Source of the DNA: Candidatus Anstonellales archaeon | GTDB lineage: Archaea; Micrarchaeota; Micrarchaeia; Anstonellales; CG1-02-47-40 | Direction: 5' to 3' | Assembly (NCBI GenBank): GCA_038869735.1 | Contig: JAWCQO010000007.1 | Coordinates: forward strand, 1 to 61,222 | Length of the DNA stretch: 61,222 nucleotides | In this document: positions 27,456-61,222 of the stretch, one piece after another | How the letters are laid out: each line of letters begins with the position of its first letter | Position numbering within the stretch: position 1 is the stretch's first letter | The notes under the pieces: model-generated | What the model was told of the DNA's origin: nothing | Seen by the model: only the letters and a program-made list of their open reading frames with translations | Databases searched by the model: none | Made by a program: the position numbers and the translations under genes

Positions 27456-27609
27456 ATATGTGTTTCACCGTTAGATGTTTATAAAGGATCTTTGTTTAGT
27501 TTGAAAACACAGATTAAATAAAACCAAAACAATTATAAATCTATATATATAGACTTTTAACCACAACAATTAAAAAGAAGATAAGGCATAAGTATATCTG
27601 GTGACGCAT

Positions 27610-28719
27610 ATGAATTTACTGAAGAAAAAAGAGGTGGGAAAATACCCCGTATATGAAAATAAGCGTGATTCTTTTATTAGACGTTTCTATTATAAACATA
27701 TAGACTCTCAAGGAGAATTAGGCTCTCAAGCTAACGCTTTTGAGAAAGGAATCATTAAGCGCTTATACGATAACCCTAAGGTAGTAAAGGTTCTTTTAAA
27801 GGTTGCCAAAAGGGTGGGAAATAACACGCTTTTAAAAGTTCTTTATAAACCGGATATTAGTGAAATGTTTATAAATAATCCTGAAAAGGTAAGTAAAATC
27901 CTTTTAAAGATTGCCAAAAATGCAGGAGAGCATGCGATCAAGGCAATCGATTTACTTGGGGATGATGTCAGGAGCCCTATATTTGTTAAGAATCCTAGAG
28001 TATTTGTTGAAATAGCCAAAATAGCTCGTAAAAGAACACCACTTGCTTTTGAGGCTCTTTCCACAAAAGAGATTGCAAATATATGTTCATATCCTTCTAG
28101 TAATTTAGAATTATTCTTAGAGTTTTTAAAAGTAGTCACAAAGCCAGGAATTTTTGGAGAGAGTAGGAGAAAGGAAGAGAATAGGGAATATCTCTTGAAA
28201 GTTATTTCTAGTGAGGGGGCGGCTCGATTGTATGAGAACTATCTCTGGGCGCTCCTAGAAATTGCAAAAGTTTCTGCACGTAGAATATATAGCGGTGATT
28301 CTATTCTCGGTGGTATTAACTATGAAGATGTGAGTCAATTGGTTGAGAGGTTTCCGTGGGCGGTTGTGGAAATTGAAAAAGTAATTAAGAAAAAGATTTA
28401 CAAACAGATTTACTGGTATATTATATATGGTAAATGTGGTTCAAAAATGCGTTCGATATTTGAGAAGCACCCGAAGCCATTTGTTGAAATTTTAAAAGCA
28501 ACTGGGGGGAGGCTAGAAGGGGTGCGTGCTTTAGACCTTCTTTATGAGAAGCCTTTGGCTCCGTTGTTTGATGAGTATCCGTGGGCGTTTGTGGAAATAG
28601 CCAGAATAGCTCGTAAAAAAACAGAAGTTGCTTTTAGATATCTTGCAAGTGAATCTCTTTCCGATTCAGAAAGAGTTGACCTAATTGAAAATCCCAACGA
28701 ACTAATGCGCCGCGTTTAA
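27610..28719 (+). CDS. helical-repeat protein without protease domain
   Basis: 369-residue protein built of degenerate 33-36-residue helical repeats, e.g. NPRVFVEIAKIARKRTPLAF and YPWAFVEIARIARKKTEVAF. These share the pattern xFVEIAxxAxxxxxxAFxxL with the two larger repeat proteins at 32.8-35.4 and 58.4-60.6 kb, but are much more diverged. It lacks their C-terminal RGHS/GSCG domain. No signal peptide or membrane segment. GTG 27601 also opens the frame; ATG 27610 is preferred, with GGTGA five bases upstream. AT-rich promoter region (27540-27560). Function unknown; the repeats suggest protein binding. Confidence 0.8.
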   Translation: MNLLKKKEVGKYPVYENKRDSFIRRFYYKHIDSQGELGSQANAFEKGIIKRLYDNPKVVKVLLKVAKRVGNNTLLKVLYKPDISEMFINNPEKVSKILLKIAKNAGEHAIKAIDLLGDDVRSPIFVKNPRVFVEIAKIARKRTPLAFEALSTKEIANICSYPSSNLELFLEFLKVVTKPGIFGESRRKEENREYLLKVISSEGAARLYENYLWALLEIAKVSARRIYSGDSILGGINYEDVSQLVERFPWAVVEIEKVIKKKIYKQIYWYIIYGKCGSKMRSIFEKHPKPFVEILKATGGRLEGVRALDLLYEKPLAPLFDEYPWAFVEIARIARKKTEVAFRYLASESLSDSERVDLIENPNELMRRV

Positions 28720-32846: not shown

Positions 32847-34304
32847 TTATGGATTTGTCTGACCGCTTTGCAGGTTTACATATCGAAGCAGGAGCTCCCC
32901 CACACTTACGAAGGTGAGCGTTTGGGGATTTCCTCCATATTTTAAAATAAAACTTGCGTTATTCTCTTTTATCTTTTGAAAGTTTATAGGCTGATCTTGC
33001 TCAAGAAGTATTTTGACAAGTGCATTTGTAACTTGTCCTCTCCCGGTAGAAGTGTTTGCAATGAATAAAAGATTAGTATTCGGGTTACTCATAATGTACA
33101 TTGCGGTTGATCCTGCACTGCCGCAGCTGCCCGGTATGAAAAGAATGTTTGCATTTTTATTTTCAAATATTGTAGGAGGAAAGACTCCTTGCAAACTGAA
33201 TGAATGCCCTCTAAATGTGATTATTAAGTTTCCAAGTTCATCAATTTTGCGTTTAATAAAATCTTGGCTTTTATCATCGGATTCGCCCATGTAAAGGATT
33301 ACTCTTCTTTTTATTTGATTTTTACCCGTAGTGCCTTCATAAATCAGCTCTCCATCGCTTCCTTTGCTGGGATTACCAAAAATCTCACGAAAAAAATCCT
33401 GGCTCATAGGCCAATGGTCTCTGCCAACATCCTCCTTCTTGAATACCTGCACGCAGGTTATGTAACCGTCTTTACCTTTGTATTGGTTAGGATTATAGGT
33501 GGTAAGCTTCTTGAGATTAGTTATTTTGCCCTTATTATCCTCTGAGACGTGCTTTGTATCTGGATCAACCATTACAAGCAGATATTCATGAGCAGATATA
33601 AGAGATTTGTTGTCGTTTTTTCGTGCCTCTTCAAGTGTCCCTGCAAGATGTTTGATGATTTGGTCTTTAGAGATGAGAGAAGATCTTAGAAGGACTTCGA
33701 TGCCGTTTGCAAGCATAAAGAGATAGGTGTCATCAAATTTGTTTCCGTCAAGAGGAGATAGGATAGCTTTTCTGGCATCGTCAACTTCACTATCTTGCAG
33801 TATTGAATTTTCTGCACCATAGAGTCTATCGTAAGTGATTGCTCTGAAAAGTAAGTTTCTCCCAATAGTAGAATCAAAACTTACTCCTCCAAATTCATTT
33901 AGAAGATCTGAAACTGATTTATTATTCAAGTCTTTCTTCAGTTTATCAAAAAGAAGATGATTTGTTGAAGTGTAGAAAAGTTGTGGGTCTGAGCATAGTA
34001 AGGAGAGGATGGTTTCTGTAGTTTGACGGTTAATTAGATTCATCCTTTGTGTTTCTCTATCATGTAGATCATCAATACTCCTACCTAATTCTATGGTCTC
34101 AGATAAAATAGTTTTTAGGTGAAATATCAGTTGGTTAATGGTTATTTTTTCATTGAAGAAGAGGAGGGTAGCATCTTTCAAATATTGTACTGTGTATGGT
34201 GCATCATCTGGAAGGCTCATGAAAATCAGATCTGCGTTTTTACCTGCGGCTTGGGCTATCTCCTTGAAGTTTCTTATAACTTGCTCTGGATCTTTGGAAA
34301 ACAT
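32847..34304 (-). CDS. 3' part of an interrupted helical-repeat/protease-like gene
   Basis: 485-residue open frame holding the last repeat and the whole C-terminal domain of the family. The putative catalytic motifs are intact: TFRGHSFSL and IPGSCGSAGS, then IANTSTGRGQVTNALVKILL. The frame continues upstream without a stop to about 34498, coding three further repeat units in frame (ending GWAFTALSNSTIAG before Met1), but it has no start codon there. So this is the C-terminal half of a gene whose N-terminal half is 34517-35371. Whether it is expressed from the internal ATG 34304 is unknown. Confidence 0.75.
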   Translation of the reverse strand: MFSKDPEQVIRNFKEIAQAAGKNADLIFMSLPDDAPYTVQYLKDATLLFFNEKITINQLIFHLKTILSETIELGRSIDDLHDRETQRMNLINRQTTETILSLLCSDPQLFYTSTNHLLFDKLKKDLNNKSVSDLLNEFGGVSFDSTIGRNLLFRAITYDRLYGAENSILQDSEVDDARKAILSPLDGNKFDDTYLFMLANGIEVLLRSSLISKDQIIKHLAGTLEEARKNDNKSLISAHEYLLVMVDPDTKHVSEDNKGKITNLKKLTTYNPNQYKGKDGYITCVQVFKKEDVGRDHWPMSQDFFREIFGNPSKGSDGELIYEGTTGKNQIKRRVILYMGESDDKSQDFIKRKIDELGNLIITFRGHSFSLQGVFPPTIFENKNANILFIPGSCGSAGSTAMYIMSNPNTNLLFIANTSTGRGQVTNALVKILLEQDQPINFQKIKENNASFILKYGGNPQTLTFVSVGELLLRYVNLQSGQTNP

Positions 34305-34516
34305 CCCTGCGATAGTGGAATTGGAAAGGGCTGTGAAGGCCCAACCTGCGTTTTCACCTGTGGCTTGGGCTATTTGGACAAATTCACCTGTGTATTTTTC
34401 AAAAAGGGAAGCGACTTTGTCATCTGAAAGGGCTTCGAAGGCCGCCCATACGTTTTTACCTGGGGATTTGACTAATATCTCTCCTTTAAATAATCTTTTA
34501 TAATTTGATTAAATCT

Positions 34517-35371
34517 TTATTTGATTAAATATTTTATAATTTGATCTGGAATAATTTGATCTGGATCTGTGGAAAACACCCCTACGATAGTGGGATTGGG
34601 AAGGGCTTTGAAGGCCCAATCTGCGTAGATACATGCGGCTTTGGCTATTCGGATAAATACATCTGGGTCTTGTGCAAAAAAGAAAGCAACTTCGTCATTT
34701 GAAAGGGATCTGAAGGCCGAAACTGCGTCTTTACCTGTGGCTTGGGCTATTTGGACAAATTCACCTGTGTATTTTTCAAAAAGGGAAGCGACTTTGTAAT
34801 TTGAAATGGCTCCGAAGGCCAACCATGCGTATTCACCTGTGGCTTGGGCTATTTGGACAAATTCACCTGTGTATTTTTCAAAAAGGGAAGCGACGGTGTT
34901 ATTTGAAAGGGCTCCGAAGGCCGCCCATGCGTATTCACCTGTGGCTTGGGCTATTTTGACAACTGCATCTGGGTGTTGTGCAAAAAGGGAAGCGACGGTG
35001 TTATTTGAAAGGGCTCCGAAGGCCAACCATGCGTTTTCACCTGTGGCGTAGGCTATCTCCTTGAATTTTCTTATAACTCGCTCTGGATCTTTGGAAAACA
35101 TCTCTGCGATAGTGGGATTGGAAAGGGCTTTGAAGGCCGAACCTGCGTTTTTACCTGCGGCTTGGGCTATCTCATCTAAACTTTTTTTCATTGTCTTCCA
35201 AGTTGTGCCGCGAGATTCATTTATATTTGGAAGTAATGCTTTTGCCATTGCTTTGGCCTCATCTTTTTTCAGGCTGTGGCGTCTAAAATAGTTGTAGCGT
35301 CTAGAATAGTTCGAACTATTAATAAACTTTGTTTTGACTCTCTCGATGAACCGGTTGAGAGGTATTGACAT
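34517..35371 (-). CDS. 5' part of an interrupted helical-repeat gene
   Basis: 284-residue open frame with six 34-residue repeats (consensus FVQIAQATGEYAWxAFGALSNNTVASLFEKYTGE). The frame ends at TAA 34517 in a patch of short tandem duplications (DPDQIIPDQIIKYLIK). Just downstream, the sequence DQIIKDYLKE reappears in another frame, and an extra AG in AAGGAGAG shifts frame again into the 3' part. The intact paralogue at 58.4 kb is one continuous frame, so this is a disrupted gene that could still make a repeat-only protein. Confidence 0.75.
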   Translation of the reverse strand: MSIPLNRFIERVKTKFINSSNYSRRYNYFRRHSLKKDEAKAMAKALLPNINESRGTTWKTMKKSLDEIAQAAGKNAGSAFKALSNPTIAEMFSKDPERVIRKFKEIAYATGENAWLAFGALSNNTVASLFAQHPDAVVKIAQATGEYAWAAFGALSNNTVASLFEKYTGEFVQIAQATGEYAWLAFGAISNYKVASLFEKYTGEFVQIAQATGKDAVSAFRSLSNDEVAFFFAQDPDVFIRIAKAACIYADWAFKALPNPTIVGVFSTDPDQIIPDQIIKYLIK

Positions 35372-37861: not shown

Positions 37862-38251
37862 GAGCTTTATTATTTGCTGGTATGTTTTTTTTGTTGGAGG
37901 TCGCGCTGGTAGGCCTATTATGGTTGCTTTTTCTAATTTTTTGAGTTTTTTAAGTAAGAGAAGAGTCCAGGCAAGGTCAAAATCATGGAGTGAATAAGGC
38001 TTTTTTAAGGACAGCTCGTCAAGACTTACTAATCTGGGGCTTCGTATTCCAATTACTGTATCCAGGATTAATAGGTCCTTTCCTTCCTTTTCCAAATCTT
38101 CGCTTGTATCAAAGGGAACAAAGTGAAATTCAGGCAGCTTTTTCTGTAGAAAGCGAGCCGTTTGAATGGCAATTGAATCATCTTTAAAAAGAGGATTTCC
38201 AAAAACCAGAATACGGCGGGGCTTGTGCATCGTCAAAACCGGTTGATTCAA
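37844..38251 (-). CDS. hydrogenase maturation protease (HycI/HyaD family)
   Basis: 135-residue nickel-dependent endopeptidase predicted to trim the large-subunit C-terminus. Motif VFGNPLFKDDSIAI holds the usual Asp metal ligand; ILDTVIG and SLHDFDL (second-site acidic and His) follow. It is the last gene of the trp operon on the minus strand, overlapping trpA by four bases (ATGA). Its 3' end overlaps the large-subunit gene it serves by 18 bases, convergently. A Met at 38230 is an alternative start. A 5' fragment of this gene is duplicated at 60.8-60.9 kb. Confidence 0.87.
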   Translation of the reverse strand: MNQPVLTMHKPRRILVFGNPLFKDDSIAIQTARFLQKKLPEFHFVPFDTSEDLEKEGKDLLILDTVIGIRSPRLVSLDELSLKKPYSLHDFDLAWTLLLLKKLKKLEKATIIGLPARPPTKKTYQQIIKLLRSLS

Positions 38252-39027
38252 ATCTCTGCGAAAGATCTGGAAAAGCTTACAAGTTTCCTGATAGCTAAAT
38301 CTTCGGAGCCGCTATTTAAATATTTCGTGTAGAGACTGATTAGTTTGCTTCCAACAATCACACCACTAGCTCCATGTTTTAAGAACTCCAATGCATGTGA
38401 AGGCGAAGAAACACCAAAGCCAACAAAGAGCTCTTTTTTCTTTCCGGCAACAGAGCGTATTTTTTTTACAAACAGTAAACTGTCCTTTAAAATCGACTTT
38501 CGCTCGCCAGTAGTCCCGCTCACTGACACGATGTAAGTGAATGGGTGGCTTGAATTGATAATTTTCTTTGCGCGCCGGACGTAAGTTGAAAGGGAAACCA
38601 TACCAATCAAGCCCATATTGCTCTTTTTGAGGGCATCAGAAAACGAAGGGTCTTCTCCAAATGGTAGGTCCGGAACGATGAGGGCAGATATACCACATTT
38701 TTTTGAATCTGAAATAAACTTTTCTTTTCCATAAGAAAAGATGGGGTTGTAATACGTCATGAAGGCGAGAGGCACGTTTGTGCATGACGATATTTTGTGA
38801 GCTATTTGCATAGCTTGTCTTATTCCTCCACCGTTTGAAAGGGCTCGCTGACTTGCCTCCTGAATTGCAGGGCCGTCTGCGATTGGGTCAGAGAAAGGGA
38901 TGCCAAGCTCTATAAGGTAGGAGTAGGGAGCAAGCGCTATAGCTGCTTTTATTGTAAATGAAGCGGATGGGTCTCCACAACATAGATATGGAATGAATTT
39001 CATATAATCACTGAAGGCTACGTACAT
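38248..39027 (-). CDS. trpA: tryptophan synthase alpha subunit
   Basis: TIM-barrel enzyme cleaving indole-3-glycerol phosphate to indole. Visible signatures are [23 protein letters not shown] (catalytic Glu and Asp), [24 protein letters not shown] and [11 protein letters not shown]. 259 residues. Overlaps trpB by 20 bases. Together with trpB it forms the synthase complex; the enzyme for its substrate (trpC) is not in this operon. Confidence 0.95.
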
Positions 39028-58408: not shown

Positions 58409-60628
58409 TTATGGCCTTGTTTGGGCGTTCTGCAAGTTTACATACCGAAGTAAGAGTTCCCCCTCGCTTGAGAAGGTGAGTGTATGGACATCTCCTCCAT
58501 ACTTTGAAATTTTGCTTTCATTGTCTGTTTTTATCTTTTGAAATTCGGTGGGTTTGTCTATTCCAAGGAATATTTCAACAAGAGCATTTGTAACTTGCCC
58601 TCTTCCTGTTGAAGTATTTGCAACAAATGAAAGATTGGTGTTTTGATTGCTCATGATATATTCTGCAGTTGAACCTGCGCTGCCACAGCTACCAGGAATG
58701 AAAAGAATGTTTACTTGTTTATTTCCAAAGATGTTGTAAGGGAAGCTTTCAAGCAAGCTGAATGAATGCCCTCTAAATGTTAGTATGAGGTTATCCAGTT
58801 CATCAATTTTGCGTTTGATAAAGTCTTGATTGTTTTGAGGGGATTCGCCCATATATAGGATTACTCTTTTTTTATTCTTTTCATAAATCAATTCTCCCTC
58901 ATTTCCTTTCTTTGGCCTGCCAAAAAGATTTTCGAAAAAGGTTTGGCTTAAAGGCCAATGGTCCTTTCCAACGTCCTCATTCTTAAAGATCTGCACACAG
59001 GTTATGTATCCATCTTTACCCTTGTATTGTTCCGGATAATAGGTAGTAAGCTTCTGGAGACTAGTTATTTTACCTTTATTTTCATCTGATACGTGTTTTG
59101 TAGATGGATCAACCATTACAAGCAGATATTCAATGGAAGATATAAGAGATTTGGAATCGTTTCTTCGTGCATTTTCAAGTGTCCGTGTAAGATGTCTGAC
59201 GGTTTCGTCTTTAGAGATTAGAGAGGAGCGCAGAAGGACGTTGATGGCGTTTGCAAGCACAAAGAAATAGATGCTATCAAACTCGTTTCTGTCAAGAGGG
59301 GATAGGAGAGCTTTTCTGGCCTCATCAACCTCCTTATCTTGAAGTATTGAATTTTCTCTGCCATAGATTCTATCGTAAGTGATTGCTCTGAAAAGTAAGT
59401 TTCTTCCAATAGCAGAATCAAGACCAATTCCTCCAAATTCATTTAGAAGAACTGAAACTGGTTTGTTATTCAAGTCCTTCTTCAGCCTATCAAAAAGGAG
59501 ATGATTTGTTGAAGTGTAGAAAAGTTGTGGGTCTGAGCATAGTAGAGAGAGGATGGTTTCTGTGCTTTGAGAGTTAATTAGGTTCATTCTCTCTCTTTCT
59601 CTGTCATGTAGGTCATCAATACGTCTGCCTAATTCTATAGTTTCAGGTAAAAAAGTTTTTAGTTGAAATACCAATTGGTTGAGGAGTATTTTGTCACTCA
59701 AAAAGAGGAGAGTAGCGTCTTTCAAATATTTTGGTAGGGATGGTTCATCTGAAAGGCTCATGAAAATTAAAACTGCGCTTTTACCTGTGGCTTGGGCTAT
59801 TGAGACAAATTTATCAGGGTATTTTGCAAAAAGGGTTGCAACTGTGGGATTTGAGAGTACTTCGAAGGCCCAAGCTCCGTATTTACCTGTGGCTTGGGCT
59901 ATTGAGACAAATTTATCAGGGTATTTTTCAAAAAGGGTTGCAACTTTGTCATTTAAGAGTGCTTCGAAGGCTCTATATGCGTCTTCACCTGTGGCTTGGG
60001 CTATTGAGACAAATTTATCAGGGTATTTTGCAAAAAGGGTGGCAACTTTGTCATTTAAGAGTGCTTCGAAGGCGCTATATGCGTATTTACCTGTAACTTT
60101 GGTTATCTCTTTGAACTTTTCTATGATTAGATTTGGATTTTGGGAAAACATCTCTGCAAGAGTGGGATTTGAGAGTGCTTCGAAGGCCCAACCTCCGTAT
60201 TCACCTGTGGCTTGGGCTATTGAGACAAATTTATCAGGGTATTTTGCAAAAAGGGTTGCAACTTTGTCATTTAAGAGTGCTTTGAAGGCTTTAAATGCGT
60301 ATACATCTGTGGCTTGGGCTATTGAGACAAATTTATCAGGGTATTTTGCAAAAAGGGTTGCAACTGTGGGATTTGAGAGTGCTTTGAAGGCTTTAAATGC
60401 GTATACATCTGTGGCTTGGGCTATCTTATCTAAGTCTTCTTTTATTTTCTTCCATGTTATGCCACGAAATTCATTAATGTTTGGAAGTAATGCTTCTGCC
60501 ACTGCTTTGGCCTCATCTTCTCTCAGGCCATGGCCTCTAAAATAGTTGAACATTTCATCATAAACCTTGTTTTGACTCTCTTGATGAACCGGTTGGAGGG
60601 TATGAATGGATATTTGGAATATGAACAT
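58409..60628 (-). CDS. helical-repeat protein with C-terminal protease-like (RGHS/GSCG) domain
   Basis: 739 residues (715 from Met26, ATG 60553, the likelier start because residues 1-24 are frame-shifted against the paralogue). Residues about 60-300 are seven 34-residue helical repeats (consensus KFVSIAQATGxYAxxAFEALLNDKVATLFAKYPD). About 300-540 is a helical middle (ATETILSLLCSDPQLFYTSTNHLLFD-like, family-specific). The C-terminal 200 residues alternate strands and helices, with ILTFRGHSFSL (His621) and NILFIPGSCGSAGS (Cys648), then NTSTGRGQVTNALVEIFL. A His strand followed by a Cys strand is the clan CD (caspase, CHAT, gingipain-like) order. No signal peptide, so probably cytosolic. Protease function is inference. 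Confidence 0.82.
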   Translation of the reverse strand: MFIFQISIHTLQPVHQESQNKVYDEMFNYFRGHGLREDEAKAVAEALLPNINEFRGITWKKIKEDLDKIAQATDVYAFKAFKALSNPTVATLFAKYPDKFVSIAQATDVYAFKAFKALLNDKVATLFAKYPDKFVSIAQATGEYGGWAFEALSNPTLAEMFSQNPNLIIEKFKEITKVTGKYAYSAFEALLNDKVATLFAKYPDKFVSIAQATGEDAYRAFEALLNDKVATLFEKYPDKFVSIAQATGKYGAWAFEVLSNPTVATLFAKYPDKFVSIAQATGKSAVLIFMSLSDEPSLPKYLKDATLLFLSDKILLNQLVFQLKTFLPETIELGRRIDDLHDRERERMNLINSQSTETILSLLCSDPQLFYTSTNHLLFDRLKKDLNNKPVSVLLNEFGGIGLDSAIGRNLLFRAITYDRIYGRENSILQDKEVDEARKALLSPLDRNEFDSIYFFVLANAINVLLRSSLISKDETVRHLTRTLENARRNDSKSLISSIEYLLVMVDPSTKHVSDENKGKITSLQKLTTYYPEQYKGKDGYITCVQIFKNEDVGKDHWPLSQTFFENLFGRPKKGNEGELIYEKNKKRVILYMGESPQNNQDFIKRKIDELDNLILTFRGHSFSLLESFPYNIFGNKQVNILFIPGSCGSAGSTAEYIMSNQNTNLSFVANTSTGRGQVTNALVEIFLGIDKPTEFQKIKTDNESKISKYGGDVHTLTFSSEGELLLRYVNLQNAQTRP
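59790..60430 (-). repeat. tandem 102-bp coding repeats
   Basis: The word CTTGGGCTATTGAGACAAAT recurs with starts at 59791, 59893, 59995, 60211, 60313 and 60415, i.e. every 102 bp (34 codons) with one diverged unit between. Units are nearly identical at DNA level. A related 102-bp array (starts 34741, 34843, 34945) is in the paralogue at 34.3-35.2 kb. Confidence 0.9.
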
Positions 60629-60796: not shown

Positions 60797-60927
60797 GAGC
60801 TTTTTCTGTAGGAAGCGAACTGTTTTGGAGGGAAATTGAATCATCTTTAAAAAGAGGATTTCCAAAAACCAAGATACGGCGTGGTTTGTGCATCGTCAAA
60901 ACAGGCTGATTCAAATCTCTGCGAAAG
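60797..60927 (-). pseudogene. duplicated fragment of the trpA/hydrogenase-protease junction
   Basis: About 130 bases match 38136-38264: the last codons of trpA and the first 40 or so codons of the maturation protease (MHKPRRILVFGNPLFKDDSI, ATG 60893). It then leaves homology and runs into the GC-hairpin element. Too short to encode a protease. Confidence 0.8.
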
Positions 60928-61222
60928 TGGAAAGGGCTTTGAAGGCCGCCCATGCGTTTTTACCTGTGGCTTGGGGCTGGGGCTAGCTCCTTGAAGTTTC
61001 TTATAGCTTGCTCTGGATCTTTGGAAAACATCTCTGCGATAGTGGGATTGGAAAGGGAACTGAAGGCCCAACCTGCGTTTTCACCTGTGGCTTGGGCTAT
61101 TTGGACAAATTCACCTGTGTATTTTTCAAAAAGGGAAGCGACTTTGTCATCTGAAAGGGCTTTGAAGGCCGCCCATGCGTTTTTACCTGCGGCTTGGGCT
61201 ATTTTGACAAATGCATCTGGGT
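60911..61222 (-). pseudogene. broken 3' end of another helical-repeat gene (enters from window edge)
   Basis: Reading from the window edge on the minus strand: PDAFVKIAQAAGKNAWAAFK, then FEKYTGEFVQIAQATGENAG, then MFSKDPEQAIRNFKELAPAP and a stop at 60962-60960. An insertion in GAGCTAGCCCCAGCCCCAAG causes that stop; the next frame resumes KNAWAAFKAL and then joins the trpA tail (TFAEI, stop at 60911). It lacks the protease-like domain. The 34.3-34.45 kb region is nearly identical. Confidence 0.75.

Follow-up and report, generated by a model that had tools for sequence, protein, structure and literature searches.

Position and layout of the gene

The window, meaning here the whole 61,222-nt stretch of DNA that was analysed, is contig C7 of a Candidatus Anstonellales genome of 884 kb, which is in 15 contigs and is 97% complete. 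The phylum to which it belongs, Micrarchaeota, is now also named Microcaldota (PMC11329633). Close to the end of the window lies a gene that the preliminary description had given as an open reading frame at 58409–60628, and whilst the single open frame of 739 aa stands, its strand needs correcting, as the gene is on the minus strand and a plus-strand reading of the same positions contains 43 stops. The gene and its parts are as follows:

58409..60628, minus strand: whole gene, 739 aa, from the ORF list (full-length AlphaFold2 model with pLDDT 88 and pTM 0.81)
60614..60628, minus strand: N-terminal leader MFIFQ, residues 1–5, of low model confidence and common to other Micrarchaeota proteins
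59723..60448, minus strand: seven alpha-solenoid repeats, residues 61–302, from DNA repeats and the full-length AlphaFold2 model
59057..59722, minus strand: conserved helical middle, residues 303–524, with many invariant residues in alignment A2 and all-helical in the model
59483..59515, minus strand: motif TSTNHLLFDRL, part of the helical middle and almost invariant across the core family
58412..59056, minus strand: C-terminal alpha/beta domain, residues 525–739, a putative divergent clan CD peptidase, from AlphaFold2 and a C14 profile match
58763..58774, minus strand: RGHS with candidate catalytic His621, right after the strand at residues 614–619, invariant in 22 aligned homologues
58679..58693, minus strand: GSCGS with candidate nucleophile Cys648, after the strand at residues 640–644, from the homologue alignment and AlphaFold2
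58580..58615, minus strand: TSTGRGQVTNAL, after the strand at residues 665–670, paired by hhalign with GAFTxAL in the C14 caspase homologues

The helical middle proposed earlier between the repeats and the C-terminal domain is borne out, being all-helical in the full-length model and strongly conserved. The genes neighbouring this one, as judged by eye from their translations, are SUF iron-sulphur, thymidylate-synthase-like, lysyl-tRNA-synthetase-like and tryptophan biosynthesis genes.

The repeat array

Seven repeats of 34 residues had been reported, and seven units were indeed found, starting at residues 61, 95, 129, 167, 201, 235 and 269, although it is six of these that have 34 residues, with the remaining one having 38. 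Each 34-residue unit is predicted by the full-length AlphaFold2 model to consist of a long helix of ∼21 residues and a short helix of ∼9. At the DNA level the copies are spaced 102 or 114 nt apart and share up to ∼90% identity, which is far beyond chance, and this near-identity, together with the unequal lengths of the arrays, of which the genome has at least three, shows recent expansion and shuffling. Across 19 units from the source genome, positions 7, 9–12, 20, 21, 30 and 33 are invariant, and the variation falls mostly at positions 16, 18, 19, 22, 27 and 31, a pattern that, as we infer, would suit a recognition surface. In the homologues the repeats, though broadly similar in kind, are different or fewer in number, and the family is therefore defined by the C-terminal 450 residues and not by the repeats. 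Elsewhere in the window, a 372-aa protein (27601–28719, plus strand) contains diverged copies of this repeat unit and lacks a protease domain.

The repeats have no TPR match in Pfam. TAL effectors were the top Foldseek matches of the full-length model (TMt 0.25), and a weak NCBIfam TALE match (E 1.9e-5) was given by the window protein only, the other arrays giving none. Homology of the repeats to TAL effectors was rejected, given that a repeat-profile search of the PDB did not find TALE and that the other arrays had no NCBIfam match. The single NCBIfam match is discounted because unrelated models (KefG, PstA, HP1451_C and XPC-binding) score equally and tandem repeats inflate summed scores. Furthermore, positions 12–13 are nearly fixed in the 19 repeats, being A and then T or A, and are not a hypervariable base-reading pair.

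Related copies in the window

Three further features on the minus strand are related to the gene:

32847..34304, minus strand: paralogue, 485 aa from the first ATG, with FRGHS and GSCGS intact and the frame open back to 34508
34517..35371, minus strand: ORF of 284 aa with repeats only, adjoining the paralogue on its upstream side
60960..61220, minus strand: terminal part of a further repeat array, still open where the contig stops and without a protease domain

Over the C-terminal 450 residues, the paralogue (32850–34217) shows 76% identity to the gene product. RGHS and GSCGS had been described as conserved between two paralogues, which agrees with FRGHS and GSCGS being intact in both, and this is not an artefact of the pair being paralogues, since neither residue varies among 22 homologues, the most distant of which have 21% identity. 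The repeat-only ORF is probably the former N-terminal part of the paralogue, now separated from it by a stop. At 34508–34520 a stop ends the repeat ORF just ahead of the protease frame of the paralogue, giving the look of a split gene.

The array at 60960–61220 shares 95% DNA identity with 34245–34462. Between it and the gene lies a 130-bp copy (60798–60927) that is 90% identical to 38136–38264, where a hydrogenase-maturation-protease-like gene starts and trpA ends; judging by its sequence, this copy is recombination debris. The end of the window at 61222 and positions 1–1404 of contig C11 both stop inside repeat arrays, with matching strands. The two ends may join, with the assembly having been broken by the repeats.

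Distribution of the family and conservation of the dyad

Residues 290–739 of the protein were searched against 147 related genomes, with homologues found in 22, and a profile search across the phylum (301 genomes) also gave 22 with matches, 20 of these clear and 2 at threshold. A wider set of 395 genomes contained no further members. Scanning the contigs of 84,980 species revealed 17 loci, every one of them from a record with the label Micrarchaeota, uncultured archaeon or ainarchaeum, using strict patterns that distant relatives could escape and that were taken from a subset of alignment A1, as A1 itself was too diverse. All 27 members that cover the His/Cys site belong to the Micrarchaeota/Microcaldota. 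No relatives were present among 2.9 million viral contigs, phages and plasmids, and a viral, plasmid or phage origin was rejected on these grounds.

The earlier view that the protein is not tied to a named family holds, as the protease domain has no name in Pfam, NCBIfam, PHROGs or PADLOC, and is thus missed by current annotation. None of the 22 members searched matched C14 or CHAT in Pfam. Literature searches for Micrarchaeota with CHAT or cysteine protease, and for DPANN with metacaspase or caspase, found nothing on the family.

The invariant columns in 22 aligned homologues are F259, F329, R330, G331, H332, S333, G357, C359, S361 and Y368, where the numbering is that of the C-terminal piece and 289 is added for the whole protein (H332 is His621 and C359 is Cys648). 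A survey of homologues for these two residues had been proposed, and it found both His and Cys kept in 23 of the 27 members, at identities down to 21%, so they are not lost in most. The window protein has a His-Cys spacing of 27, which had been remarked upon as short, but which is a constant of the family, with 27–30 observed among members.

Four paralogues are without one or both residues, and the domain tree requires three separate losses to account for them. In L054, Glu replaces His and Phe replaces Cys, a joint loss that is as expected if the two residues work as a pair. L035 possesses LRADV and GVCG at the motif sites, and L081 and L082 possess YRGDI at the His motif with the Cys kept. 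The latter three are each encoded directly beside an intact copy, forming the tandem pairs L031 with L035 (G079:C47), L025 with L081 (G002:C10) and L026 with L082 (G006:C10). The dyad-lacking partners in these pairs look exported, having a hydrophobic N-terminal segment.

Predicted fold of the C-terminal domain

Residues 525–739 were modelled with AlphaFold2 from an 18-row alignment (pLDDT 88, pTM 0.87). In domain numbering, the model runs from a strand at 18–25 through a helix, a strand pair at 56–60/63–70 and a second helix to a strand at 90–95 and the His (97), followed by a short helix, a strand at 116–120, the Cys (124), a helix, a strand at 141–147 and further helices. His621 and Cys648 had both been described as following a strand, and in the AlphaFold2 models each does follow a core strand (614–619 and 640–644), these strands being successive. 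In the clan CD core, the sheet has the order 2-1-3-4, with His at the end of strand 3 and Cys at that of strand 4 (PMC4357240), and the order of elements in the model fits a caspase-like one provided that one edge strand is an addition, which is also seen in some other clan members.

The order of His621 and then Cys648 is that of the clan CD dyad, and their catalytic role is predicted. Gly620 before His621 and Ser622 after it are both invariant, where clan CD usually has His-Gly. Two loops, 648–650 and 673–676, have pLDDT <50 in the full-length model, which is compatible with active-site loops that would become ordered on activation.

Profile comparisons

Single-sequence hhalign failed to separate C14 from unrelated window proteins, and for this reason only profile scores were used. 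The comparison sets were 13 bacterial C14 domains and 8 CHAT domains from plasmids, fetched with consensus strings as seeds; three of the C14 sequences were then confirmed with Pfam (E 1e-15 to 1e-27). The family profile aligned to the 13 C14 domains with a score of 30.1 (E 0.0011, probability 21%), which was not reached in 300 column shuffles (maximum 23.5) or 200 block shuffles (maximum 20.0). The alignment is in register, with FRGHS placed on FSGHG, PGSCGS on LDxCHS and GQVTNAL on GAFTxAL. Alternative query and C14 alignments scored 22.7 to 27.7, the score fell to 23.2 to 25.6 once two archaeal C14 proteins had been added, and a separate comparison with eight sequences gave E 0.014 and a probability of 3%, with only the GQVTNAL segment aligned. 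The HHalign probability for C14 is low throughout, at 4–21% across alignments and 3% in the eight-sequence comparison, and PF00656 had no match in the protein's own genome. Taken together, the match is real but weak evidence of C14 descent, or at least of a shared fold.

Of 295 genomes from the phylum, just 2 have true C14 proteins and 12 have C25 proteins. L147 (G043:C51) and L146 (G111:C16) are true C14 caspase homologues from Micrarchaeota, in one of which the domain comes after an apparent FHA domain and in the other after WD40-like repeats, as seen by eye. For a gingipain-like C25 domain there was no profile signal, with scores of 12.4–18.6 against a small set of five archaeal C25 sequences, which were unevenly complete. 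A glutamine amidotransferase profile, at 14.7, was also at noise.

Foldseek against the PDB returned weak matches, mostly to small GTPases with Arf-type ones best, and while their E-values go down to 6.7e-5 with a probability near 1, their TM is just 0.35–0.40. The top 50 contained no clan CD structure, and a structure search of BFVD gave nothing significant. These matches could be taken to mean that the domain has an alpha/beta fold of Rossmann-like or GTPase-like type with no relation to clan CD, and that its His and Cys have a structural or binding role. The sheet order of GTPases, 2-3-1-4-5-6, includes the 2-1-3-4 order of caspases plus one antiparallel strand, so such matches are expected under either fold and are neutral, not contrary, to clan CD. 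The GTPase profile scored 17.6, which is noise, and aligned the wrong region to the P-loop, and alignment A1 of the family has no conserved P-loop (GxxxxGK[ST]); a GTPase domain was rejected on these two points, and an unrelated fold of this kind is unlikely. On the earlier question of whether the predicted fold is unrelated to clan CD, the model is compatible with that clan, but Foldseek did not retrieve a structure from it.

The preliminary description had also likened the domain to CHAT peptidases and suggested a link to CRISPR or defence, neither of which is supported here. The CHAT profile scored 18.9, a score at noise that was equalled in 9 of 250 shuffles, and a Pfam CHAT match was absent from the protein's own genome and from all members searched. 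A repeat-sensing effector of the CHAT family, acting in phage defence or linked to CRISPR, would have the same plan of an alpha-solenoid followed by a C-terminal His-Cys domain, but besides these scores, no match was found in PADLOC, no neighbour is shared across the 17 loci compared, and the 2.9 million viral contigs, phages and plasmids hold no relative, making an effector of this kind very unlikely.

With a probability of roughly 0.6, we conclude that the C-terminal domain is a very divergent clan CD cysteine peptidase, with His621 as the base and Cys648 as the nucleophile, and with C14 the nearest among the profiles tested. The family is new and is probably a variant within clan CD.

Export signals and the N-terminal leader

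A signal peptide or N-terminal membrane segment was detected by hydropathy in 5 of the 27 members (L012, L015, L035, L081 and L082), and the window protein has neither. In one Microcaldota co-culture, a protein tube connects the cytoplasms of symbiont and host (PMC11329633), so that a missing signal would still allow action in the host.

The export signals also bear on an alternative in which the fold is that of clan CD but the reaction is another acyl transfer, for example the ligation or transamidation of surface proteins, which some legumain-type (C13) enzymes carry out. The conservation and fold evidence is the same for such an enzyme as for a protease, and the signal or membrane segments of the five members would suit work on surface proteins. 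Nothing specific indicates a ligase, however, and most members have no export signal, and so we consider this reading, too, to be unlikely.

In 8 genomes, the leader M[FL]IFQ has four exact 17-nt matches, all four in this gene family, and its 15-nt form opens at least 12 ORFs of 150–500+ aa that are mostly unrelated to each other (families f1/f5). The seven leader-bearing ORFs that were checked have no Pfam domain. Around 35 leader sites were counted from the table (L164–L198) in f1/f5 genomes, as opposed to 1 for the reversed pattern, with the leader matches of family f8 being mostly chance. As far as its sequence can tell, the leader is a possible sorting or docking tag.

Proposed function

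The best explanation for these observations is a single-chain sensor protease, belonging to a family so far found only in Micrarchaeota/Microcaldota. In such a protein, the repeat array would act as a solenoid sensor and bind a ligand, the helical middle would relay the change that the ligand induces, and the flexible active-site loops would become ordered, switching on a self-contained protease that would cleave a target, or the enzyme itself, to a limited extent. The inactive paralogues encoded beside active ones may serve as partners or regulators. A relay from solenoid to protease has a solved precedent in the TPR-CHAT protein Csx29 (PMC10028731).

A role in cell-surface or host interaction is somewhat more likely than one in phage defence, given that some members have export signals and that the group lives symbiotically. 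Taken further, this would be a clan CD family restricted to Micrarchaeota, with sensor arrays diversified by recombination, pairs of active and inactive copies for control, and sorting through the hitherto undescribed M[FL]IFQ leader, acting on the host archaeon or on the symbiont's surface; in this full form the proposal is quite unlikely. If the reading as a sensor protease is right, the family would be a lineage-specific branch of the caspase fold with a His-Cys spacing shorter than in any C14 or CHAT domain compared, its inactive copies would be the first pseudo-caspase-like partners for Archaea, and it would offer a testable handle on the interaction between Micrarchaeota and their hosts, the molecular basis of which is so far poorly characterized.

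Comparison with known systems

With regard to the repeats, TAL effector repeats are alike in their length of 34 residues and in having two helices per repeat, but here the long helix passes through the site of the TALE base-reading loop. In overall plan the protein resembles Csx29 of the CRISPR type III-E system Craspase, which has a helical-repeat N-terminus, a C-terminal His-Cys protease and allosteric control, a change in the repeat domain repositioning His615 and Cys658 (PMC10028731). It differs in having 34-residue repeats of a long and a short helix, no conserved neighbour, a CHAT profile score at noise and a His-Cys spacing of 27–30, compared with 42–51 in 8 CHAT domains (H615/C658 in Csx29).

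The C14 peptidases (caspases, metacaspases and orthocaspases; PF00656) share the placing of His and then Cys after successive strands, as well as local similarity at three sites, FRGHS against FSGHG, GSCGS against DCCHS, and, after the next strand, GxVTxAL against GAFTxAL. The spacing, however, is 48–64 in 13 C14 domains, and the family described here has Ser where C14 has Gly following the His, lacks both a Pfam match and an Asp at the second position ahead of the Cys, and is fused to its own repeat solenoid and helical middle. Caspase-like paralogues without the His-Cys dyad are known as pseudo-orthocaspases in bacteria, with none in Archaea among 93 archaeal p20 proteins (PMC6426788), whereas here four archaeal members are without one or both residues and three of them lie beside an intact copy.

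A short His-Cys spacing sets the family apart from both the C14 and the CHAT domains compared. In the clan CD gingipain RgpB, the catalytic His is His211. RgpB has a short His-Cys spacing as well, with the residues printed as His221 and Cys244 (PMC4357240).
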